Shown here in pieces: positions 1 through 59,982 of a stretch of DNA of 64,000 nt. Under the pieces are notes generated by a model. That model was not told the DNA's origin, made no database searches, and saw nothing but the letters and a program-made list of their open reading frames with translations. Location of the stretch: contig NZ_JAPYZV010000004.1 in assembly GCF_027812955.1 (NCBI RefSeq), forward strand, positions 186,001 through 250,000, read 5' to 3'. Every line of letters begins with the position of its first letter. The first letter of the stretch is position 1. Source of the DNA: Pedococcus sp. 5OH_020. Its GTDB lineage: Bacteria > Actinomycetota > Actinomycetes > Actinomycetales > Dermatophilaceae. The translations under genes and the position numbers were made by a program.

Positions 1-663
<663 letters not shown>

Positions 664-677
664 CGGCGCTCAGGTGC

Positions 678-1592
678 TCACCGTGCTGGGACGTCGGTCA
701 TCCAGTGCTGGTACCACTGGCTGATCTGCATCCCGACATGCTCGTAGAGCGGCAGGGCGCCTGTCCGCGAGTCCGTGGCCAGCTCGCTACGCGTGGCGCC
801 GTGCTCGCGTGCTCTGGCGAAGGCGTCGACCAGCAGGGCCCGAGCCAAGCCCTTGCCTCGCTGGTCACGGCGCGTGGCGAGCTGGTCCACGTAGCCGCAG
901 CCGTCCGTCATGATCGTGAAGGCGACGGCCGCCGCCGCTCCGTCCGGTGCCACCGCCAGCCGCAGCTGCCACGGCTCGAACCCGGGGCGGTGGATGGTGC
1001 CGGCCGCCCAGTCCTCGAAGGTGCTGGCCTGACGGTCCGGCCACTCGTTGAACGCGTCCTCGACGAGGCGGAAGGCCGCCTCGTCGTCGATGCCGGGACG
1101 CAAGTCGCGCAGCGTGTAGCCCCTGGGCAGCGGCTGGGGCTCGATCCGAGCCCCTTCCGGCACCACGAGCACCCAGGACTGCCAGCCCTTGCGGTAGCCG
1201 AGCCGCCGGAACAGCGCCTCGGCGTCCCCGCCCACCGGGACAGTCTGTCCGACGACGGTCCCTCCTCTGCGGGCGCTGCACTCCTGGGCCCACGTCGCCA
1301 GCCAGGTGCCGATGCCGCGTCCCCGGTCCGCCGGGTGAACGGTCGCCTCGGCCCGGCGCGCCTTGTACACCTCACCGGCAGCCACGAGCCGCTCCCGGTC
1401 GAAGACACCGACACTCTCGTGCTCGAGGTCGAAGCTCGGACGGGCCCAGCCCCCCTCGATGTCCTCCGGCTCGACGACCACCTGGCCGGTGTCGTGCTTC
1501 TCGGCTGCCGCGAACAGCTCGTACGTCGCGTGGGCGTCAGCCGGCGTCAGCGGCCGGGACCTGAGTCCGTCGGGAAGCTTCATGGAGACCAT
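678..1592 (-). CDS. GNAT-family N-acetyltransferase with two GNAT-like halves
   Basis: Predicted acetyl-CoA-dependent N-acetyltransferase of about 304 residues; substrate unknown. Two acetyl-CoA-binding signatures are visible: RGRGIG near residue 90 and RGKGLA near residue 250. The protein thus looks like a tandem GNAT, as in mycothiol synthase and related actinobacterial enzymes. The start was placed at the ATG at 1592, with an alternative ATG three codons later. The longer open frame beyond 1592 runs into the divergent acdS gene and has no recognisable homology. No strong ribosome binding site is seen. Confidence 0.75.
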
Positions 1593-1671
1593 GGTGGCGG
1601 CGGCACGGCCATCGTCGCATCCGGTTTCCCGCAGCCGTGCGCCCCGCTCGATCCCCGAGAAGGAGAATGAC

Positions 1672-2691
1672 GTGTCGATCCACGACTTTCCGCGGTACCC
1701 CCTCACCTTCGGGCCCAGTCCCGTGCACCGGCTCGACCGGCTCACGGCGCACCTCGGCGGTGCCGACCTCTGGGCCAAGCGCGAGGACTGCAACAGCGGT
1801 CTGGCGTTCGGTGGCAACAAGACCCGGAAGCTGGAGTACATCGTTCCGGACGTTCTCGCGCAGGGGGCAGACACGCTGGTCTCGATCGGCGGGTACCAGT
1901 CCAACCACACCCGTCAGGTGGCCGCAGTGGCGGCGAAGCTGGGGCTGCGGTGCAGGCTCGTCCAGGAGCGGTGGGTGGACTGGGACGACCCGGTGAACGA
2001 CAAGGTGGGAAATATCCTCCTGTCGCGGATCATGGGCGCGGACGCGAGGTTGGACCCACACGGGTTCGACATCGGCATCCGTTCCTCCTGGGAGGACGCC
2101 CTCCGGGAGGTCGAGGAGTCCGGTGGGAAGCCGTACGGGATCCCTGCCGGTGCCTCCGAGCACCCGCTCGGCGGTCTCGGGTTCGCGGGGTGGGCCTACG
2201 AGGTCGCCCAGCAGGAGCGGGAGCTGGGCGTGTTCTTCGACACCATCGTCGTCTGCACGGTGACCGGCTCCACCCACGCCGGCATGGTCGCCGGCTTCGC
2301 GGCGCTCGAGGACGCCGGCGGACCCACCCGCCGGATCCTCGGCGTCGACGCCTCCGCCACGCTCGAACGCACCCGTGACCAGGTCAGGCGGATCGCCCGC
2401 CACACCGCCGGCCTCATCGGCCTCGAGCGTGAGCTCAGGGACGACGAGGTCACGGTACTCGAGGGGTGGGCTGGGGATCTGTACGGCATCCCGGTCGACT
2501 CGACGGTCGAGGCCATCCGGCTCAGCGGGCGGCTGGAAGGCATGATCATCGACCCGGTCTACGAGGGGAAGTCCATGGCCGGACTGGTCGACCTGGTGTC
2601 GTCGGGGGAGATCCCTGCGGGCTCCACCGTCCTGTACGCCCACCTCGGCGGGCAGCCCGCGCTCAATGCGTACTCCGGCATCTTCGCCTGA
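1672..2691 (+). CDS. acdS: 1-aminocyclopropane-1-carboxylate deaminase (PLP enzyme)
   Basis: Fold-type II PLP enzyme of 339 residues, the usual ACC deaminase length. It cleaves the ethylene precursor ACC to 2-oxobutyrate and ammonia. The PLP lysine lies in [10 protein letters not shown], the substrate-binding Ser/Asn in GGYQSNHTR, and the pair Tyr-Glu in DPVYEGKSM. That Glu is the residue usually taken to separate true ACC deaminases from D-cysteine desulfhydrases. A second tyrosine sits in LYGIP. The GTG start at 1672 follows AGGAG at 1661-1665. The gene is divergent from the acetyltransferase and stands alone. It is cytoplasmic and often linked to plant or soil association, although nothing else here supports that lifestyle. 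Confidence 0.9.
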
Positions 2692-2769
2692 GCCACGCTG
2701 CTGTCCGGATCGTGAGCGGCGACGTGGCGAAGATGGACGCGTCGATCCGCGGCGACATACTCTCCTGCC

Positions 2770-2814
2770 GTGCGTCTCGTGCACCTTCTCCTTCGCCGCC
2801 GCGGCGGGGCCTGA
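2770..2814 (+). CDS. Leucine-rich leader peptide upstream of leuA (14 codons)
   Basis: Reading GTG at 2770 gives the short peptide M-R-L-V-H-L-L-L-R-R-R-G-G-A followed by TGA. Four of 14 codons are leucine and three of these are consecutive. The gene lies 89 bases before leuA, where actinobacteria often carry a leucine-codon leader peptide for attenuation. The ORF is far too short for ordinary gene calling and has no clear Shine-Dalgarno sequence. The call rests on position, the leucine run and the Arg-Arg-Arg-Gly-Gly tail. Confidence 0.6.
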   Translation: MRLVHLLLRRRGGA

Positions 2815-2829
2815 CAGATCAGCCGCCCC
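2806..2829 (+). promoter_or_regulatory. Hairpin overlapping the leader peptide stop, probable leuA attenuation element
   Basis: GGGG at 2806-2809 can pair with CCCC at 2826-2829 and CTGA at 2811-2814 with TCAG at 2819-2822, leaving a CAGA loop and a small bulge. The structure overlaps the stop codon of the leucine-rich leader, so ribosome stalling at the leucine codons could control its folding. No U-run follows, so transcriptional and translational attenuation remain open. Confidence 0.45.
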
Positions 2830-2858
2830 TCGTCGCGGAGTAGCGTTGCCCAGGCTGA

Positions 2859-4649
<1,791 letters not shown>

Positions 4650-4658
4650 GCCATCGGG

Positions 4659-5288
4659 TCAGCGGACGCCGCGCGGGCGGAACTGGACGGAGATGCGGGG
4701 GCCCACCGGTCTCGCGGTTTTCGGCACGCAGTGGTCCCAGGTGCGTTGGCACGAGCCACCCATGACGACCAGGTCGCCGTGGCCCAGGGAGAACCGCAGG
4801 GAGTCGCCGCCCCCTCGTGGCCGCAGCATCAGCGAGCGAGCCGACCCCACGGACAGGATCGCGACCATCGTGTCCAGGTTCTTGGCCCGGCCGATGCGGT
4901 CGCCGTGCCAGGCCACCGAGTCCTTGCCGTCCCGGTAGAGGCACATCCCGGCGGTGACGAAGGGCTCGCCCAGCTCGTCGGCGTATCGGTCCGTAAGGTC
5001 CTCCCGGGCCTGCGCCAGGGCCGGATGGGGCAGCGGCTCTCCTTCGTCGTAGAACTTCAGCAGGCGCGGAAGGTCCACCAGACGCTCGTACATCTCGCGC
5101 CGCTCGGCGTGCCAGGGGACCTCCCGGTGAAGAAGGTCGAAGAGCCGGTCGGCTCCGGCGAGCCAGCCCGGCCGGTAGTCGACCCACGCCCCACGGGACA
5201 GCTCCGTGCGCCGAGTCGCCGTGCCGAGCGGCTGCAGCGCGATCTCGTCACCGACGTCGAGGAGCGAGGCCTGCCATGCCATAGCCAT
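4659..5288 (-). CDS. AlkB-like 2-oxoglutarate/Fe(II)-dependent DNA repair dioxygenase
   Basis: Protein of 209 residues with the double-stranded beta-helix iron site: the HxD motif in WHGDRIG near residue 129, the distal histidine in DHCVPK near 185, and the 2-oxoglutarate-binding arginines in RISVQFRPR at the C-terminus. The family oxidatively removes alkyl groups from DNA or RNA bases. The sequence resembles the ALKBH2/3-type bacterial AlkB rather than the E. coli ada-linked form. ATG codons at 5288 and 5282 are both possible starts and no strong RBS separates them. Confidence 0.85.
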
Positions 5289-5420
5289 TCACGCAGCATA
5301 ACGCTCCTTCGAACGTATGTACTAGTAGTCGCCAGGACTGCGGAGAGGTTCGGCAGAGGTTCATCAGGAGGTCCGGCACGGCCTCCCGCCCGCGCGCGAC
5401 CGGTGCGGGACAATGGGCCC

Positions 5421-6212
5421 ATGCCCCTGTACCGCGACGAAGGGATCGTCCTACGCACCCAGAAGCTGGGCGAGGCCGACCGCATCGTCACCATGCTGAC
5501 GCGCACGCTGGGCAAGGTCCGGGTGGTCGGTAAGGGGGTACGCCGCACGAGGAGCCGGTTCGGTGCACGGCTCGAGCCGGGGATGATGGTGGACGTCCAG
5601 TGCTACGAAGGGCGCAGCCTCGACACGGTGACCCAGGCGGAGTCGCTTGCCTCGTGGGGTGACGTGCTGGCGCGCGACTACACCACGTACACGGCTGCGG
5701 CGGCAATGCTGGAGACGGCCGACCGGCTCACCGAGGAGCGGGAGCCCAACCTGCAGCAGTACCTGCTGCTCCAGGGTGCGTTGCGGTCCATGGCCGAGGG
5801 CGCCCACGACCCCGGCCTCGTGCTCGACGCCTACCTGCTGCGCGCGCTGGCCATCGCCGGATGGGCCCCCAGCTTCCATGACTGTGCGCGCTGCGGTGCG
5901 CAGGGGCCCCACCGCGCCTTCAACCTGGCCGCAGGCGGCACCGTGTGCCCGGTATGCCGTCCGATGGGCTCCGCTGCGCCGGCCCCCGAGACCCTGGCCC
6001 TGCTGGCTGCGCTGCTCGCGGGGGACTGGGTGGTCGCCGATGCCTCGCAGAGCCGGCACCGCCGGGAGGGCAGCACGCTGGCGAGCGCGTTCCTGCAGTG
6101 GCACCTCGAGCGCGGGGTGCGCTCGCTGCGTCTGGTGGACCGCCGGGACGCGGACGCGCCGGCGCACGTCCACCCCTCGCTCCCACCGGTGCGCACGGCG
6201 GCCCAGCCGTGA
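5421..6212 (+). CDS. recO: DNA repair protein RecO
   Basis: RecO loads RecA on SSB-coated single-stranded DNA in the RecFOR pathway. The 263-residue protein starts with the OB-fold region ([20 protein letters not shown]) and has a four-cysteine zinc site: C155-x2-C158 and C176-x2-C179. The ATG at 5421 was chosen because family homology begins exactly there, although the frame stays open far upstream. The last codons overlap the GTG start of uppS (GTGA), so the two genes are probably translationally coupled, a common actinobacterial arrangement. Confidence 0.95.
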
Positions 6213-6991
6213 GCGGTGCGTACCTCACGCCGTTCTCCCACCCGAGCGGCGCCAGACCTCCCTCCTTGCCCACGGAGCTCGTGCCCCGGCACGTCGCCAT
6301 CGTCATGGACGGCAACGGTCGGTGGGCCAACCAGCGTGGGCTGCCCCGGACGAAGGGACACGAGGCGGGGGAGGCGGCGCTGCTCGACGTGACCGCCGGC
6401 GCCATCGAGGCAGGGGTGACCCACCTGTCCGCGTACGCCTTCTCCACCGAGAACTGGAAGCGCAGCCCCGACGAGGTGCGCTTCCTGATGGGCTTCAACC
6501 GCGACGTCATCCGGCGTCGGCGCGACCAGCTCCACGAGTGGGGCGTCCGGATGCGGTGGGTCGGGCGTCGGCCTCGGCTGTGGGGCTCCGTCATCAAGGA
6601 GCTGGAGACCGCACAGGAGCTGACGCGGCACAACACCGGCCTGACGCTCTACTTCTGCGTCAACTACGGCGGTCGCGCAGAGATCGCCGACGCCGTCCAG
6701 CGGATCGCCGAGCAGGTGCAGCGCGGCAGGCTGAGACCGGGCTCCATCGACGAGCGCACGATCGCGCGCCACCTGCCCGAGCCGGACATGCCCGACGTCG
6801 ACCTCTTCGTGCGATCCTCGGGCGAGCAGCGGACGAGCAACTTCCTGCTCTGGCAGAGCGCGTATGCGGAGCTGGTGTTCCAGGACACCCTATGGCCCGA
6901 CTACGACCGGCGGCATCTCTGGGCCGCGATCCAGACGTACGCCGAGCGCGACCGGCGATACGGAGGCGCGGTGGATGTGCCCTCCGCCTGA
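6209..6991 (+). CDS. uppS: Isoprenyl transferase (polyprenyl diphosphate synthase, UppS family)
   Basis: Cis-prenyltransferase making the long-chain polyprenyl diphosphate carrier for peptidoglycan and other wall polymers. Family signatures are clear: [13 protein letters not shown] with the catalytic Asp at residue 34, FSTENWKR, and the C-terminal [15 protein letters not shown] with the isopentenyl diphosphate-binding arginines. The length of 260 residues is typical. GTG at 6209 overlaps the recO stop. The protein is probably peripheral at the inner face of the membrane. Confidence 0.95.
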
Positions 6992-7043
6992 GGTCCTGGG
7001 CCACCTCGCGGCCCAGCGACCTCACCGGCCTCAGCGTCACGGC

Positions 7044-7460
7044 CTAGCGGCGACACTCCTGGCAGGTGCCGACGATCTCGAGCGTGTGACGCACGTCGGT
7101 GAAACCGTGCTCGGCGCTGACCCTCGACGTCCACGCCTCGACGGTCGGCCCCTCCACCTCGACGGTGCGACCGCAGACCCGGCACACCAGGTGGTGGTGG
7201 TGCCCCGTGGAGCAGGCCCGGTAGACCGCCTCGCCCTCGTCGGTGCGCAGCATGTCGATGTCGCCGTCGGCGGCCATGCTCTGCAGCGTGCGGTAGACCG
7301 TAGCGAGCCCGACCTGGTCGCCCGACTCGCGTAGCACGGCGTGAAGCTCCTGGGCGGAGCGGAACTCGTCCGTGTCGGCCAGCGCGGCCGCCACTGCGGC
7401 GCGCTGGCGGGTCGGGCGCCGGCTGGCCTCCATGGTCCGGCGTTCTTCCACTCTGGTCAT
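7044..7460 (-). CDS. zur: Fur-family zinc uptake regulator (Zur-like)
   Basis: Fur-family repressor of 138 residues: winged helix N-terminal half (ATVYRTLQSMAADG) and a metal-binding C-terminal half with the HHHHLVC core, CRVC and CQEC cysteine pairs for structural zinc. It is the last gene of znuA-znuC-znuB-zur, its ATG overlapping the znuB stop (ATGA). Zinc rather than iron specificity is inferred from this operon and from the matching double box in front of znuA, which implies autoregulation. Confidence 0.88.
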   Translation of the reverse strand: MTRVEERRTMEASRRPTRQRAAVAAALADTDEFRSAQELHAVLRESGDQVGLATVYRTLQSMAADGDIDMLRTDEGEAVYRACSTGHHHHLVCRVCGRTVEVEGPTVEAWTSRVSAEHGFTDVRHTLEIVGTCQECRR

Positions 7461-8458
7461 GGCTGCGCGTTCTCCTTCCGGGCTTCGTGACGGGCGGGGT
7501 CGTGCTCGTCGTAGTGGCCTTCGTGCGCCGCGTGCCTGTGGCCGTCGTGCACATAGTCGACGTGGTCATGGTGCTCGATGGCGGCATGTCCGCAGTCCGG
7601 GCCGTGCTCGTGGTCGTGGCGTTCGGCCCGGCGGTGCTGGTGCGCCCGGGCCTTGGCGATGGCGGCACTGGCGCTCGCCGCGACGACGAACAGGGCGATG
7701 GCCAGCAGCACGATCGTCCCGCCCGAGGGAGTCTCCGCGTAGAACGACGCGACGACCCCGCCGACGCTCGACACCACGCCGACGAGCACCGCCCAGCGCA
7801 CCGAAGCGCGGAAGCTGCGGCCCAGCAGCTGGGCCGTCGCGTTGGGGATGATCATCAACGCGCTGATGAGCAGCAGCCCGACCACTCGCATCGAGACGAC
7901 GACGGTGACGGCGGTGAGGACGGCGAGCGCGATGTTCAGACCGGTGACCGGCAGCCCGCCGGCGCGTGCGTACTCCTCGTCGTTCGCCACGGCGAACAGC
8001 CAGGGGCGCAGCACCCAGGTCGTGAGGAGCACCACGACCGCCAGCCCGGCGAAGACCCACAGGTCGCGCTGGTCCGCCGTCGTGATGGCCCCGAAGAGGT
8101 ACGCGGTGAGGTTGGCGGGACTGCTGCTCGGCGACTTGGCGATGATGACCACCCCGGCCGCGATGCCGCCGTAGAACATCACCGCGAGCGCAACGTCCCC
8201 GCTGGTCCTGCCACGGCCCCGGATGAGCTCGATGGCGACTGCGGCCGCGACCGCCGCGAGCAGTGCGGTGAGGACCGGCGCGTGACCTGTGAGGACGCCG
8301 ACGGCCACGCCGGCCAGCGCCACGTGACCCATACCGTCGCCGATGAGGGACAGGCGCCGCTGGACGAGGAAGACCCCGACGAGCGGTGCGGCGATGCCTA
8401 CCAGCACCGCGGCCAGCAAGGCCTGACGCATGAAGTCCAGGGACAGCAGCTCGGTCAC
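7457..8458 (-). CDS. znuB: Zinc ABC transporter permease with long histidine-rich C-terminal tail
   Basis: ABC-3 family membrane protein of 333 residues, with about eight hydrophobic helices in its first 265 residues, that passes zinc across the cytoplasmic membrane. The last 65 or so residues are hydrophilic and hold 16 histidines plus one cysteine, in patterns such as HDHEHG and HHDHVD. Such a tail is not part of the core permease and probably binds zinc, maybe as a store or sensor. The GTG start overlaps the znuC stop, and the TGA overlaps the zur start. Confidence 0.9.
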   Translation of the reverse strand: MTELLSLDFMRQALLAAVLVGIAAPLVGVFLVQRRLSLIGDGMGHVALAGVAVGVLTGHAPVLTALLAAVAAAVAIELIRGRGRTSGDVALAVMFYGGIAAGVVIIAKSPSSSPANLTAYLFGAITTADQRDLWVFAGLAVVVLLTTWVLRPWLFAVANDEEYARAGGLPVTGLNIALAVLTAVTVVVSMRVVGLLLISALMIIPNATAQLLGRSFRASVRWAVLVGVVSSVGGVVASFYAETPSGGTIVLLAIALFVVAASASAAIAKARAHQHRRAERHDHEHGPDCGHAAIEHHDHVDYVHDGHRHAAHEGHYDEHDPARHEARKENAQP

Positions 8459-9306
8459 GAGCGTCGCACCCCCTTGGGGTCGAGGGGCCCGGCGGCAGGG
8501 GCCGCCGCGAGCGCGGTGGGGGTCAGCCGGTTGTCGTCGTCATCGTGATGGTCATGAGCGCCGGCGTCGAAGTCCCCTGCCCTCGATGCGAATGCGTCAG
8601 GCGTCCCGTCGAACGCGACGTGCCCCGACTGGATGACGACGATCCGCGTGACGATGCCGGCCAGGGCCGCCAGCTCGTGGGTGACGATGACCATGGTGGT
8701 CCCGCGGCGGGCGAGCCGGGAGAGGACCTCTGCGAGGACGTGCTGGTTCGCCGCGTCGATGCCGGCGGTCGGTTCGTCCATGACGAGGATATCGGGGTCC
8801 GAGGCGAGGGCCCGGGCGATGAGGACCCGGCGCTGCTGGCCGCCGGACAGCGTCGAGACGTCCGCAGCGGCCCGCTCGGACAGGCCCACGACCTCCAGCG
8901 CCCGTTCGACGATCTCGGTGTCTCGGGCCGACCTCAGCAGGGGCCGCCACCAGTGGTGGTGTGCCAGCCTGCCGACGGCCACGATCTCGGCAGCGGTGGC
9001 CCGCACGGAGGCCGACAACGTATGCCGCTGGGGCACATAGCCGAGGCGTGCGAAGTCGTGGAACTCTGCCCGCGGCACCCCGAAGAGCTCGACCTCGCCG
9101 CCGAGGTGGGTGGTGAGGCCCATCAGGCCCCGGACGAGGGTGGACTTGCCGGAGCCGTTCGGTCCCAGCACCGCGACGACCTCCCCCGCCCGTACGGTCA
9201 GGTCGGCGCCTTGGACCACGGGCTGGTCGGTGTAGCCGAAGGAGGCCTGTCGAAGCCGCAGGATGGGTGGAGCGGCGGTCGGCTCTGCAGGGGAGGCGGT
9301 CGTCAT
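8455..9306 (-). CDS. znuC: Zinc ABC transporter ATP-binding protein
   Basis: ATPase subunit of 283 residues with Walker A GPNGSGKST, signature LSGGQQRR, Walker B DILVMDEPTAGID and the switch histidine in VTHELAAL. The start chosen is the ATG at 9306, which overlaps the znuA stop as ATGA and follows GGACAGGAG; a GTG two codons earlier is less likely. The C-terminal end carries an unusual HDHHDDDD cluster, matching the histidine-rich tail of the partner permease. Confidence 0.93.
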   Translation of the reverse strand: MTTASPAEPTAAPPILRLRQASFGYTDQPVVQGADLTVRAGEVVAVLGPNGSGKSTLVRGLMGLTTHLGGEVELFGVPRAEFHDFARLGYVPQRHTLSASVRATAAEIVAVGRLAHHHWWRPLLRSARDTEIVERALEVVGLSERAAADVSTLSGGQQRRVLIARALASDPDILVMDEPTAGIDAANQHVLAEVLSRLARRGTTMVIVTHELAALAGIVTRIVVIQSGHVAFDGTPDAFASRAGDFDAGAHDHHDDDDNRLTPTALAAAPAAGPLDPKGVRRS

Positions 9307-30995: not shown

Positions 30996-31145
30996 ATGAC
31001 CTCCATCGACCCGGCCGAGAGGCTCAACGACGACGTCCTCCAGGAGGAGATCGCTCTGCTGGGTGACGTGATCGCAGCGGCCACCCAGGCCGGCCGGCCT
31101 CTCTGTCAGGCAGAGGTGGACCGGGCCCTGGGAGTGGATCGGTGA
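30996..31145 (+). CDS. Small acidic helical protein, paralogue 1 (49 residues)
   Basis: ATG at 30996 follows GGGAGG. The protein reads MTSIDPAERLNDD, then a helix rich in Leu and Glu (LQEEIALLGDVIAAATQ) and an ending QAEVDRALGVDR. It is clearly paralogous to the gene at 31555-31794: the core EEI-LLGD and QAEVD-ALGVD are shared. The TGA overlaps the GTG of the next gene. No function is known; the size and composition suggest a binding partner or modulator. Confidence 0.65.
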   Translation: MTSIDPAERLNDDVLQEEIALLGDVIAAATQAGRPLCQAEVDRALGVDR

Positions 31146-31381: not shown

Positions 31382-31554
31382 CTAGGCGCCGGGGGGTCCA
31401 GGGGGTCACGTTGAGCCATCGACGCCCCAGTCTGACGTCAGGCAGGATGGTCCCGAGGTCGAACAGACGGACTCGAGCCCGCTGTAGGGGTCCCCGCGAC
31501 TGCGCGGACGGAGCTGACCCAACTAGCGCTGCTGTCGGGAGAAGGACCTCAACC

Positions 31555-31794
31555 ATGGCTGACATCGACCCGGCCCCGGAGCTGCACGACTCCACCCTGG
31601 AGGAGGAGATCGAGCTGCTGGGCGACCTCCTGGAAGCGGTGGCTCAGGCTCATAGCCCGCTTGGCCAGGCGGAGGTGGACCAGGCCCTCGGCGTCGATGG
31701 CAGTCACGACGGCGCCCACCACGATGGCGCCCCGCGCGGCCACCGCGAGCCCGCAAGGCCTCCGTTCATCCGTGGTGGGGCAGGTCGGGCTTGA
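31555..31794 (+). CDS. Small acidic helical protein, paralogue 2 (79 residues), tail formed by att repeat
   Basis: ATG at 31555 follows GAGAAGGA. Residues 1-49 are a paralogue of the protein at 30996 (MADIDPAPELHDS, EEEIELLGDLLEA, QAEVDQALGVDG). The remaining 30 residues are His/Arg/Pro-rich (SHDGAHHDGAPRGH), and the last seven codons lie inside the 48-bp att repeat, so this C-terminus overlaps the former tRNA 3' end. Function unknown. Confidence 0.6.
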   Translation: MADIDPAPELHDSTLEEEIELLGDLLEAVAQAHSPLGQAEVDQALGVDGSHDGAHHDGAPRGHREPARPPFIRGGAGRA

Positions 31795-31820
31795 ACCGAC
31801 GACCGACGGATTATGAGTCC
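31773..31820. repeat. Left 48-bp att repeat (copy of the tRNA-Met 3' half)
   Basis: Identical over 48 bp to 33902-33949, the 3' part of tRNA-Met from the anticodon stem to the encoded CCA. Beyond 31820 the similarity to the tRNA stops abruptly. This is the direct repeat expected after site-specific integration into a tRNA gene. Confidence 0.93.
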
Positions 31821-32412
31821 CGTCCGCTACGTCCTGCCCTATAGTCCGCCACCCGGTTACGTGCTCAGGGGTGGGGGAGCGGGGCACCTTCATCCTGCCC
31901 TGTCGGCGTCCATTCTGAGCGGTGGCGTAGCAACGCCGTTAGCAAGAAGTTGGGACGAGTCGGACACCGAAACGGCAGACGCTTAGACCCGCATCAGCTA
32001 CAAATGATGCAGGCCCAGCCGATCTCTCGACGTCAAGACAGCACCGGCCAGTCGGGCGGGGTGCTGTCTTACGTGTCACGGGGGAAGTTCTCTAGGGCCA
32101 GGGCGCCGATCTCGGGCCTGCGTCGTAGCGGCAGCGCTCGGCCGCATTCGGCTCCGGGTGGACATGGATGGTGAGGCGGCTCAGACCGGCCACATCTCGG
32201 CGCGGGCGGGGCGGGAGGATGGGGGGACGTGCGCCGGCACGGCCAAGCGCGATAGCGCCAACTTCTGGGGTGGTTGTCGCTTGTGGCAGGCCGACTTACG
32301 CTGTGCCCGAGGCGACCGCCCCCGTGTCCTCGCTGCTGGATCCACGGGGCCGGTCTCCGAGTGCGCGTACCCGGGGGAACCCCCCCCCATTCATGGACCA
32401 GCTGGCGCTACC
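31821..32412. other. Left end of the integrated element, no confident gene
   Basis: About 590 bp with no convincing coding frame. It holds a pair of possible integrase arm sites (31927-31945) and a strong hairpin (32035-32070). Stops are more frequent and base composition less G+C-rich than in the flanking chromosome. Confidence 0.6.
32035..32070. terminator. Hairpin with 11-bp perfect stem inside the element
   Basis: AAGACAGCACC at 32035-32045 pairs perfectly with GGTGCTGTCTT at 32060-32070 around a 14-base G+C-rich loop. The ends AAGAC/GTCTT give a short T-run on the plus strand, so it may be an intrinsic terminator. Confidence 0.6.
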
Positions 32413-32700
32413 GTGCGGGCTCATGCTGAGACGTATCGCGTGACCTATCGGGGCATTGCCCCGTTCGCTTCGATGCTCGTTCAGATGCTCGAGGACGAGG
32501 GCGTCACTGTTGCGGACTGGGAGCGTCCGGAGGAGGCCCGGGGTGCTGGGGCTGATGCGCTGCGCGACGTCGTCGTCGGCCTTGTGACCTCCGGTGCCTA
32601 TGACGCGATCAAGTTCGCGATCGAGCGTTTTAGGACGGCGGCTAAGGGCCGCGGTCATGCCACGATCGACGGCGACCCTGACGATGGCGGCTTCTTTTGA
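32413..32700 (+). CDS. Hypothetical element protein (95 residues)
   Basis: GTG at 32413, or alternatively GTG at 32440, opens a frame with a beta-strand start (YRVTYRGIAPFASMLVQMLE), the region VTVADWERPEEARG, a central helix DALRDVVVGLVTSGAYDAI, and an acidic tail DGDPDDGGFF. The strand-helix-strand layout with a conserved SG turn recalls small actinobacterial adaptor-like proteins seen near conflict systems, but I would not name a family. The upstream in-frame extension to 32158 looks non-coding. Confidence 0.5.
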   Translation: MRAHAETYRVTYRGIAPFASMLVQMLEDEGVTVADWERPEEARGAGADALRDVVVGLVTSGAYDAIKFAIERFRTAAKGRGHATIDGDPDDGGFF

Positions 32701-32779
32701 CGCAAGGTGTCAGATGCGCGGTCCATGTTGGAGGGACAAAGTTGATGCAAGTTCCGAGGGAAAGACGACGAGGGTGTCG

Positions 32780-33310
32780 CTAGTTCCACCCGAGCACGGC
32801 CGGTAGGACCGACACGACGGATCCGATGCCGATGAGCAGGAGCCCAAACAACTGCATCCCTACAGTGCTTGTGGCATTCCGCCGTGCTAGCAGCTCGACC
32901 TCTGACGTTGCTGCTGCCGCCTTCGCCTCCGTGCCCGCGAGCTGTTGGCTCACGTCGTCGATCCGTCGGTCAGCTTCGCGGTGGTAGGTGTCGAGCGCTT
33001 GGTGTAGGGCATCGACCTCGCGCCGCAGGTACTCGATCTGCCGCTCCGTGGGCGCGTCCGCATCGGGGATTAGCCGCGTCACTAATCCCTCAGCGACGAG
33101 GATGCCCTCACCACCAAGAAACACTGTTCCGCTCGCAGTCACCGGGCCTCGGAACGGCAGCTGGTTAGCGGCCCAGCGCCGGGCCGCCACTAACCAAGGC
33201 AAGAGCGGCACGCCCTGCGCATTTTCGCGGTAGTCCTGGATGAGCGCCTTTCCCGCAAGGAAGGTGCCAGTGACGTTCAGCACAAGACCGATGACGGCTG
33301 CGATCTTCAC
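32780..33310 (-). CDS. Membrane protein: helix, soluble part with coiled coil, helix (176 residues)
   Basis: GTG at 33310 gives 176 residues. A hydrophobic N-terminal helix (residues 3-25) is followed by about 65 polar residues and then a coiled coil (ERQIEYLRREVDALHQALDT onward, about residues 95-150). A second hydrophobic helix at the very C-terminus (MQLFGLLLIGIGSVVSVLP) completes it. Such hairpin-like membrane proteins with a coiled coil occur in phage lysis/superinfection and in abortive defence proteins, but no specific match is seen. No Shine-Dalgarno is visible, so the start is uncertain. Confidence 0.55.
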   Translation of the reverse strand: MKIAAVIGLVLNVTGTFLAGKALIQDYRENAQGVPLLPWLVAARRWAANQLPFRGPVTASGTVFLGGEGILVAEGLVTRLIPDADAPTERQIEYLRREVDALHQALDTYHREADRRIDDVSQQLAGTEAKAAAATSEVELLARRNATSTVGMQLFGLLLIGIGSVVSVLPAVLGWN

Positions 33311-33407
33311 GCGAAATAGAGTGACAGCGCGGCTCGCGCCTCCACCAGCGGGTCGGCTGCGAAGGGGCCCGAGCCCCCCTCCCCCCAGTGGCACCGATGG
33401 CCCGATC

Positions 33408-33602
33408 TCAGTCCTTGGTGTAGTCGGCATACCGGGCGACCTCCCGGCGCAGTGGAACGCGGAGCACCGGCCGACCAGCCTCGAGGATCTCGGCGCCGTT
33501 CCCGCACCAAGTCCGCCAGCCTTGCTCGGCGAGGTCTGCGGCCCACTGCTCAAAGGGCGGGTCGACGGTCGGGTCGTGGTCGAAGAGTTTGTACTGCCAC
33601 AT
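33408..33602 (-). CDS. Small DUF4177-like protein (64 residues)
   Basis: ATG at 33602. MWQYKLFDHDPT, a helix FEQWAADLAEQGWRTW, and a terminal strand LRVPLRRE give the strand-helix-strand layout and the characteristic LxxxGW motif of DUF4177-type proteins, which are common in phages and mobile islands. The assignment is by motif only. It lies between the integrase fragment and the membrane protein gene on the same strand as the latter. Confidence 0.5.
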   Translation of the reverse strand: MWQYKLFDHDPTVDPPFEQWAADLAEQGWRTWCGNGAEILEAGRPVLRVPLRREVARYADYTKD

Positions 33603-33626
33603 GAAGACTCACCGTAGGGTCCTGGT

Positions 33627-33815
33627 GTGACGCCGCTGCGGGTAACGTTCGGTAACGCCACGATGCTCCTGCGCGACGGAGTGCCTGTGCACGTCGTCGC
33701 CAAGCGCCTCGGTCACAAGGATCCGTCTGTGACCCTGAACGTCTACGCCGATGCCATTCCCGACGACGACGGCCGCGCCGTCGACACCTTCACACGGGCG
33801 GTGTGGGGCGCGTGA
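33627..33815 (+). pseudogene. Truncated tyrosine integrase (C-terminal end)
   Basis: Residues VPVHVVAKRLGHKDPSVTLN and YADAIPDDD are the C-terminal catalytic end of an actinobacterial tyrosine recombinase, with the second active-site His (LGH) and the nucleophilic Tyr (NVYADA). The first part of the normal HxLRHTHAT motif is altered to PLRVTFGNAT, and the remaining 300 or so residues are absent: upstream lies the oppositely oriented 33408-33602 gene. It ends 86 bases before the right att repeat, as integrases next to their att site do. Confidence 0.85.
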
Positions 33816-33901
33816 GGGCTGCTGTTAGCAAATCCGTAGCAGGCCGGTGCCGCATGGGTGCTCCCTCCGGACCACCGCAGGCCCCTCACCTGCGAGGACA
33901 C

Positions 33902-33949
33902 TGGTGGGGCAGGTCGGGCTTGAACCGACGACCGACGGATTATGAGTCC
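33902..33949. repeat. Right 48-bp att repeat inside tRNA-Met
   Basis: Same 48 bp as 31773-31820; here it is part of the intact tRNA gene, from CCA to the anticodon stem. It marks the tRNA-side boundary of the element. Confidence 0.93.
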
Positions 33950-33978
33950 GCTGCTCTGACCGACTGAGCTACTGCCCC
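33902..33978 (-). tRNA. tRNA-Met (anticodon CAT), elongator type, CCA encoded
   Basis: Complete cloverleaf of 77 nt including CCA: acceptor GGGGCAG pairs with CTGCCCC, anticodon stem GCGGA/TCCGT with loop CTCATAA, T-arm with TTCAAGC. The body has no initiator features (no CGCGGGG acceptor), so it is elongator tRNA-Met or, less likely, a lysidine-type tRNA-Ile. It is the integration target of the adjoining element. CCA is encoded, unlike in tRNA-Asn and tRNA-Val of this window. Confidence 0.94.
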
Positions 33979-34243
33979 GCGCCGACGGTGAGTTACCGCT
34001 CGGGCGCCGTGAGCCTACCTCCACCCGGCGACGCGCCGGCTGGCGAGGGACGCGACTGCAGCGCCGGTCGCACCAGTGTGGAATGGCAGCGCGCATCACG
34101 GTGACGACTGTGAGTGCTGGTGCTTATGTGCATTCTGGTGCAGAATGTGCGTGCAACGACAACTGAAGAGCCGCGGCGTACGCCGAGCAACCTGGTGCAG
34201 AGGTTCGTGGGGAAGACGTCCCTCGCACACCAAGGAGGCCCGG

Positions 34244-58266: not shown

Positions 58267-59982
58267 CTACGACTTGGTGGCGTTCCAGGCCTGGTCGTTG
58301 CTGGTGCAGTCCCGGGCCGGTGTGTCGGTGTAGGAGATGGACTCCCGTAGCGTGCCAGCCAGCCGTGGTAGCCCGGAGGGACTCAGGCCGTGGACGTTTC
58401 CGTTGAAGCGGTAGGTGAACGTTGCGGGGTGGCCGGCGAAGACGCCGCTTTGGGTGGTGGTCGAGGCAAACGACCCGTCGGCGTTCAGAGCGATCGAGGC
58501 GATCTGTATCTTGTCGAAGGCGGCGGCGCCGTCGGGGACACAGGCCAGATCCACGGTCGGCACCGAGACGTCCTGCAGTGCCGTACCGGGAGCCGAGACG
58601 AAGAACGTCAACGGACGTGACTGGGTGTCGGCCCCGGTGTAGCTGCCCGATGGTGGGGCGGTGGTGGGCTGCGCCGGCTGGGTGTCGCGGGTGGCGTTCC
58701 AGGCCTGGTCGTTGCTGGTGCAGTCCCGGGCTGGTGTGTCGGTGTAGGAGATCGACTCCCGTAGCGTGCCAGCCAGTTTCTGTGCTCCACCGGTCGTCGC
58801 GCCGGCCAGGTGACCGTTGAAGACGTAGGTGAACGTTGCGGGGTGGCCGGCGAAGACGCCGCTTTGGGTGGTGGTCGAGGCAAACGACCCGTCGGCGTTC
58901 AGAGCGATCGAGGCGATCTGTATCTTGTCGAAGGCGGCGGCGCCGTCGGGGACACAGGCCAGATCCACGGTCGGCACCGAGACGTCCTGCAGCGCCGTAC
59001 CGGGAGCCGAGACGAAGAACGTCAACGGACGCGACTGACCATCGGACCCGGTGTAGCTGCCAGGCGGTGCCGTTGCTGGTGGGGCCAGGTAGGTGAAGAC
59101 GTCGGCGGTCGCCGCGCTCGAGGTGCCGTAGGCGCCGGAAACCCGCCCATGAACGGCACCCAGGGCGTGGGCGGGGGCAGTAACGAGCAGCTTGGTGGTC
59201 GACAGCACCGACACCGCGGTCCCCGCACTCGTGCCGAACCGAACCGCGGTGACCCGCCTGAAGCCGGTGCCTGTGACCGTCACCCGGGTGCCGCCGCCCG
59301 TCGGTCCAGACGTAGGAGCCACGGCCGTGACGCGTGGCGGTGTGAAGAAGGTGAAGACGTCTGCCGCGACCGCCGGTGACGTGCCGTAAGCCCCGGAAAC
59401 CCGCACATGAACGGCAGCCAGGGTGTGGGCGGGGGCAGTAACCAGCAGCTTGGTGGTCGACAGCACCGACACCGCGGTCCCCGCACTCGTGCCGAACCGA
59501 ACCGCGGTGACCCGCCTGAAGCCGGTGCCTGTGACCGTCACCCGGGTGCCGCCGCCCGTCGGCCCAGACATAGGAGCCACGGCAGCGACGCGTGGAGGTG
59601 CGAAGAACGTAAAGCGATCAGCAGTGACCAGTGCTGAGCGGCCAGCTGTGGTCAGGACCCGAACGTCAATCCTCCCGACCGCATGTCGGGGACTGGTTAC
59701 CTGAAGCTTGGTGGACGACAGTACCCGCACCAACGTGCCAGCCACCGTCCCGAACTGCACGCCCCGAACATGCGAGAACGCGCGGCCGGTGACAGTCACA
59801 CGGGTCCCGCCGTTCGTGGAACCAGACGTCGGGGAGACGGCGGTCACCACCGGCCGGGTCGCCGCCGCGGCGGGGACCGCCCCGCCCTCCACGCCGACCA
59901 GCCCCACCAGACAAGCGAGGGCCGCAACGATGGCGCGACGCATCAGATGTGACCGCACGGAGGACCCCTGGGAAGCGTGCAT
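58267..59982 (-). CDS. Secreted IPT/TIG repeat protein with duplicated C-terminal module
   Basis: 571 residues. A signal peptide (RRAIVAALACLVGLVG to AAAA) is followed by three IPT/TIG domains of 86 residues each (VVTAVSPTSGSTNGGTRVTV and copies), then two near-identical modules of about 124 residues, each beginning GSYTG and ending CTSNDQAWNAT. Two cysteines per module may form a disulfide (LACVPDG and ARDCTSN). ATG at 59982 follows TGGAGA. Probably an extracellular or surface-attached protein; ligand unknown. It sits between two transposase sequences. Confidence 0.85.
   Translation of the reverse strand: MHASQGSSVRSHLMRRAIVAALACLVGLVGVEGGAVPAAAATRPVVTAVSPTSGSTNGGTRVTVTGRAFSHVRGVQFGTVAGTLVRVLSSTKLQVTSPRHAVGRIDVRVLTTAGRSALVTADRFTFFAPPRVAAVAPMSGPTGGGTRVTVTGTGFRRVTAVRFGTSAGTAVSVLSTTKLLVTAPAHTLAAVHVRVSGAYGTSPAVAADVFTFFTPPRVTAVAPTSGPTGGGTRVTVTGTGFRRVTAVRFGTSAGTAVSVLSTTKLLVTAPAHALGAVHGRVSGAYGTSSAATADVFTYLAPPATAPPGSYTGSDGQSRPLTFFVSAPGTALQDVSVPTVDLACVPDGAAAFDKIQIASIALNADGSFASTTTQSGVFAGHPATFTYVFNGHLAGATTGGAQKLAGTLRESISYTDTPARDCTSNDQAWNATRDTQPAQPTTAPPSGSYTGADTQSRPLTFFVSAPGTALQDVSVPTVDLACVPDGAAAFDKIQIASIALNADGSFASTTTQSGVFAGHPATFTYRFNGNVHGLSPSGLPRLAGTLRESISYTDTPARDCTSNDQAWNATKS
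58277..59061. repeat. 371-bp direct repeat within the TIG protein gene
   Basis: 58277-58647 and 58691-59061 are copies at a fixed offset of 414 bp, exactly 138 codons. Long stretches (for instance about 58415-58575 against 58829-58989) are identical. A second repeat of 258-bp period underlies TIG domains 2 and 3. Confidence 0.9.

Follow-up and report, generated by a model that had tools for sequence, protein, structure and literature searches.

A 2.1-kb insert at tRNA-Met in Pedococcus sp. 5OH_020 as a probable decayed, CIME-like island

Whether the 2.1-kb insert beside a tRNA-Met gene of Pedococcus sp. 5OH_020 represents the shrunken remnant of an integrated island or a small element depending on an integrase encoded elsewhere is the question raised by this locus. 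It lies in a stretch of 64,000 nucleotides (contig NZ_JAPYZV010000004.1, positions 186,001 to 250,000), here called the window, from a genome of 4.43 Mb in 32 contigs. Tyrosine integrases insert at the 3' ends of tRNA genes and rebuild the tRNA, and an original prediction made from the sequence had offered both readings. The features on which the choice depends are collected in Table 1.

The insert is bounded by an exact direct repeat (48/48 identical, spacing 2129 bp), as the original prediction had claimed; its right copy corresponds to the 3' 48 of the 77 nt of the tRNA-Met called by ARAGORN and forms the attachment core adjoining the integrase remnant. With the intact tRNA on one side and its displaced 3' fragment, equally oriented, on the other, the insert has the arrangement of a tRNA-targeted island. 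On the distal side, the similarity to the tRNA-Met island of Knoellia koreensis reaches 77.5% over 178 columns with the core included and 73.7% over 95 colinear columns for the inner arm alone, core excluded (E 4.7e-4), and the arm obtains a global score of 57 vs at most 19 in 300 shuffles; the loci of the congeners G007, G009 and G010 yielded no comparable match. On the proximal side, two short matches are colinear with the same island, one at 33821-33843 (96% identical, E 5e-6 with the flank searched alone) and one at 33869-33893 (85%), and window positions 33869-33980, which are mostly the tRNA itself, are 93% identical. Judged by these alignments, both ends of the insert are real attachment ends.

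Table 1. Features of the tRNA-Met locus, in window coordinates
Feature	Position	Strand	Basis
Distal end of the insert, a displaced 48-bp copy of the 3' part of tRNA-Met	31773..31820	minus	48/48 identity to 33902-33949
Inner arm on the distal side, with homology to the corresponding end of the K. koreensis island at tRNA-Met	31821..31944		alignment
Small-gene remnant, CxxC-bearing half lost, frame broken	32064..32178	minus	91% to contig C29 of the same genome (L036 8058-8173); translations compared
Second C29-like stretch	32218..32374	minus	88% to L036 7537-7692
91-aa ORF, near-orphan, predicted start	32425..32700, inside a longer open frame	plus	ORF
176-aa protein, hydrophobic ends and long predicted helix (coiled coil), near-orphan	32780..33310	minus	ORF; weak partial matches
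64-aa protein of a small family in genomes of the host family	33408..33602	minus	relatives in 18/186 family genomes, own included
C-terminal remnant of a tyrosine integrase (approximately residues 326-378 of 378)	33655..33815 (ORF 33627-33815)	plus	85% DNA identity to K. koreensis integrase; PHROG integrase E 2.8e-10
Inner flank on the proximal side, from integrase remnant to tRNA	33816..33901		short matches to K. koreensis island
Intact tRNA-Met (CAT)	33902..33978	minus	ARAGORN; conserved in 10/10 congeners

The full-size relative, from K. koreensis DB2414S, occupies the same tRNA-Met, measures 14,267 bp from core to core (L026 2749-17015) and carries a full 378-aa integrase, with repressor, primase-like, WhiB, tail-chaperone, tape-measure and excisionase-like families recognized among ten scanned ORFs. 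It shares with the insert the tRNA, the core, an integrase 85% identical over the remnant and a homologous distal arm; it differs in its full integrase and phage-type genes, and none of the three cargo ORFs of the window was found in it, so that this particular island is not the source of the remnant. None of the ten scanned ORFs was called as capsid, portal or large terminase, and the island is possibly either a reduced prophage or a satellite that has tail genes. Relatives of its integrase lie beside tRNA-Met at L059 (83% identical), L060 (71%), L061 (72%) and L064 (74% over part) and beside tRNA-Arg at L062 and L063 (68%), and an eighth, L065, is 26% identical; the viral contigs held no relative, and 9 of 50,697 phage records matched at E<=1e-30 with 24-31% identity. 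Both in K. koreensis and at L064 a DUF3145 gene adjoins the displaced tRNA copy, the same gene adjoining the whole tRNA in the window, and the tRNA is thus inverted relative to its neighbours at those two loci.

Inside the insert, two genes are broken. The aligned portion of the integrase is confined to the last 53 of 378 residues, a stretch that retains the tyrosine and from which the HELRHTHAT sequence of the full protein, which we take to be the conserved His/Arg motif, is absent. The corresponding ORF also matches Pfam Phage_integrase at E 5.7e-6 and 26.6 bits, just below the cut-off of 27.1; together, the PHROG match and the alignment to the full integrase (Table 1) confirm the predicted integrase C-terminus beside the tRNA, reduced to residues 326-378 with no functional integrase gene in the insert. 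The second broken gene belongs to a pair of stretches whose source is a serine-recombinase element on contig C29 of the same genome, adjoining a broken-off Mg-chelatase (ComM-type) gene, and on C29 the two stretches are separated by approximately 325 bp that the insert lacks. In that C29 element (L036 about 1-8800), the serine recombinase interrupts or abuts the ComM-type gene, and a GNAT-like gene and other, unassigned small genes are present. With 53 of 378 integrase residues left and an internal C29-like gene both truncated and frameshifted, the 2.1-kb element is, as far as its gene content can be read, dead on its own.

Equally informative is the distribution of the insert, for which the comparison of the tRNA-Met locus across relatives proposed with the original prediction was carried out. 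The tRNA is present in all ten congeners and the 2.1-kb insert at its locus in none, weaker partial matches on other congener contigs being left out of this count; the sharing of the same 2.1 kb by relatives, which would have spoken against a mobile origin, was thus not observed. A single core match per genome, at <=3 mismatches, was found in six congeners (G001, G003, G004, G005, G006 and G008), and a displaced core copy on the same contig and strand in the other four (G002, which is K. koreensis DB2414S, G007, G009 and G010). At least 7 of 186 family genomes carry a pair of core copies sharing contig and strand, a lower bound because the search pattern matched in 76 of the 186 only, with spacings of 1760, 2129, 5005, 8721, 11182, 14267 and 20081 bp; this search also missed a second, 0.69-kb interval in G009 and a 7.4-kb interval in G124. 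Scar-sized intervals occur in two other congeners, at 1.76 kb in G007, where an integrase was not detected, and at 0.69 kb in G009. Between the integrases of G009 and G010 the identity is 74%, and to that of K. koreensis it is 31% and 29%, respectively, so that the site is used by two or more integrase lineages of distant relationship. The tRNA-Met site is an integration hotspot that has been used repeatedly. The left flank of the insert was not found at the congener loci past the point where the neighbouring transporter region begins, and a base-perfect empty site could therefore not be shown.

From this evidence, the insert is very probably a CIME-like decayed island, the shrunken remnant of a tyrosine-integrase element at tRNA-Met, and of the two readings in the original prediction it is this one that the homology of both ends to a full-size element and the breakage of the integrase and an internal gene support. 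A tyrosine-integrase element would have inserted in the anticodon-to-3'-end part of tRNA-Met, rebuilding the tRNA and leaving the displaced 48-bp fragment. A prophage or phage satellite akin to the K. koreensis island is the probable ancestor, and the phage tail-type genes of that island make such a descent likelier than one from an ICE or IME. Internal deletions would then have removed most of the element, and with it roughly the first 325 of the 378 residues of the integrase, and the remainder would be a relic with two attachment ends, three small ORFs and no working recombinase. Movement, if any, would most likely be passive, when an incoming element of the same site specificity inserts beside the relic. 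Counted against decay are the intact frames of the 176-aa and 64-aa ORFs and the perfect repeat; given such a repeat the insert need not be old, and it may have arrived small.

The cargo corresponds to the three small ORFs of Table 1, as expected from the prediction that only small genes lie between the repeats, and none of them matched an integrase or transfer family in Pfam, PHROGs or NCBIfam at E<=1. The 64-aa protein had been labelled DUF4177-like, a membership that is rejected here, since 0 of the 13 members of its family alignment, which contains nine invariant residues, match DUF4177 or any other Pfam or PHROG family at E<=0.1. Among phages it has one match (E 0.04), and its best PDB match lies at E 0.72. 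Relatives of it were also located within tRNA-Met intervals of two other genomes, G124 and G007, the latter with a short stretch at E 2.6e-4. In 18 regions from 15 genomes around 64-aa relatives, the relative was re-found by tblastn in 16, and a recombinase, integrase or lysin relative was present in 9 of the 18, a descriptive count from a small query set without a random-gene baseline. At L076 and L086, around position 8000, the 64-aa relatives adjoin a conserved 68-aa ORF (HicA-like by eye) and a helix-turn-helix-like gene; a lysin-like gene lies some kb away, and the regions are near the 3' ends of tRNA-Gly and tRNA-Thr.

The other two cargo ORFs are more isolated. Counting its own genome, the 176-aa protein has matches in 3 of 186 genomes of the family and 4 of 396 of the order, those outside its own genome being weak, partial and 27-41% identical, and searches of phages, viral contigs and PDB sequences returned nothing useful (best PDB E 0.27). 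In one of the matches (L056 1300-2034) the layout looks similar by eye, with a coiled coil between two hydrophobic segments. At 0.72/0.46/0.75, the GC content by codon position of the 176-aa ORF agrees with a coding sequence, but the signal is weaker than in five nearby host genes, whose third positions reach 0.89-0.95. Single-sequence models of the cargo, the 176-aa protein among them, are of low confidence (mean pLDDT 55.7 and 59.5). The 91-aa ORF, whose product may resemble adaptor parts of conflict systems, found only itself in 186 family and 347 order genomes, phages, plasmids and genome contigs.

A wider interpretation, compatible with the decayed-island explanation and held here tentatively, would regard the 2.1 kb as the latest layer of a graveyard in which several elements have left their remnants, as a mosaic, over the whole interval between approximately 30.95 kb and the tRNA; in the same tentative terms, the boundary of the insert would be only the youngest edge. 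The presence of C29-like pieces inside the insert and the absence of the left flank from the congener loci fit such a mosaic, as does a 14-mer that links the window at 31410, contig C9 and the C29 element as its only three places in the genome; the C9 locus moreover holds relatives both of the 31555 gene and of the region upstream of the 64-aa gene. It is opposed by the single displaced tRNA copy in 29-38 kb of the window, and the order of events is not readable from one genome.

Several observations concern these surroundings. The 14-mer GTTGAGCCATCGAC lies at window positions 31410-31423, at C9:16674-16687 and at C29:307917-307930, each time near small genes in mobile-DNA settings and, on C9 and in the window, approximately 130 bp before a related small gene; it is possibly a shared promoter or binding site. 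To the left of the insert, two tandem related small genes at 31004-31139 and 31563-31698 are 71% identical over 136 nt, with a further relative on contig C9, and the ORF at 31555-31794 found no relative in the 18 regions around 64-aa relatives. Elsewhere in the window, positions 58276-59725 hold long tandem repeats, approximately 90% alike, in which the units measure 414 and 258 bp.

The second reading offered by the original prediction, a living, non-autonomous, satellite-like mini-element that would still have its attachment ends and cargo and rely for movement on an integrase encoded by another element, appears improbable. It would account for the retention of both ends and parts of both inner flanks around a perfect repeat and for the stretch related to the 64-aa protein in the 1.76-kb interval of G007, and the distance between integrases sharing the site in congeners (29-31% identity) would make a helper hard to recognise by sequence. 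Against it, the G007 interval shares with the insert only the core and a 52-column stretch and is not the same unit; in the 186 family genomes the isolation of the 91-aa ORF and the weak partial matches of the 176-aa protein leave no second copy of the unit; and a gene inside the insert is broken. Furthermore, the source genome contains no further tRNA-Met core copy at <=3 mismatches. Eight stretches of this genome match the K. koreensis integrase, the remnant being one of them, and the best of the others is 37-38% identical over its length. Three integrase loci, representing four of the matches, are without tRNA-Met, one having no tRNA, one tRNA-Ile and tRNA-Ala, and one tRNA-Arg; this survey was made outside the three weaker matches on C31, C8 and C32. 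Dependence on another integrase thus received no positive support, and a helper in the source genome is unlikely, no stronger word being appropriate since distantly related integrases share the tRNA-Met site in congeners.

Highly improbable, in our estimate, is the related idea that the cargo ORFs form a retained module, for example for phage exclusion, selected for in an integrase-less, tRNA-anchored cassette that would spread through the integrases of distantly related tRNA-Met elements. Similarly, the assignment of its parts in the exclusion reading, as a membrane coiled-coil protein, a small phage-end protein and a small partner, has very little probability. The weakest explanation, in which the 48-bp copies arose by chance or as independent tRNA fragments unrelated to integration, can be dismissed, because approximately 4e-17 exact 48-mer pairs are expected in the window by a composition-only estimate and both inner flanks are homologous to the ends of one island at the same tRNA.

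As a single object, the decayed island is an ordinary genomic relic. Its interest lies in the tRNA-Met series to which it belongs, in which spacings from 20 kb to under 1 kb within one genus show integrated elements shrinking to scars. In addition, the small 64-aa family may help to find element scars, if its tie to mobile DNA holds in a controlled survey.

With respect to known systems, the portions of the literature on Knoellia prophages, DUF4177 and decayed or non-autonomous islands that were accessible contained nothing on this locus. The Islander approach, in the sections of its description consulted, maps tDNA islands by the signature of a tRNA plus a displaced fragment and lists anticodon-region crossover among the subsites (PMC4383910). 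The locus resembles such islands in its layout, a tRNA and its equally oriented, displaced 3' fragment enclosing an insert; it differs in that Islander, according to the same sections, requires an integrase gene and rejects islands of <2 kb, whereas the insert has a remnant only and is just over 2 kb. A closer counterpart is provided by CIMEs, which the available parts of two sources describe as prevalent relics with attachment sites and without a recombinase, descended from ICEs or IMEs, the classical forms measuring 1.2-13 kb with cargo and microCIMEs 130-220 bp (PMC5704250, PMC7563491). The insert departs from this description in its descent, since its likely ancestor is a prophage or satellite, its nearest full relative having phage tail-type genes in a scan of ten ORFs; conjugation genes, at which the scan was not specifically aimed, did not appear among the ORFs inspected, and mobilisation in cis is here hypothetical. 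It agrees with CIMEs, as they appear in those parts, in retaining both attachment sites, with an exact core repeat and both inner flanks homologous to a full island, in having no working integration or transfer genes beyond the integrase remnant, and in carrying few cargo genes within 2.1 kb, a length that falls inside the classical range.
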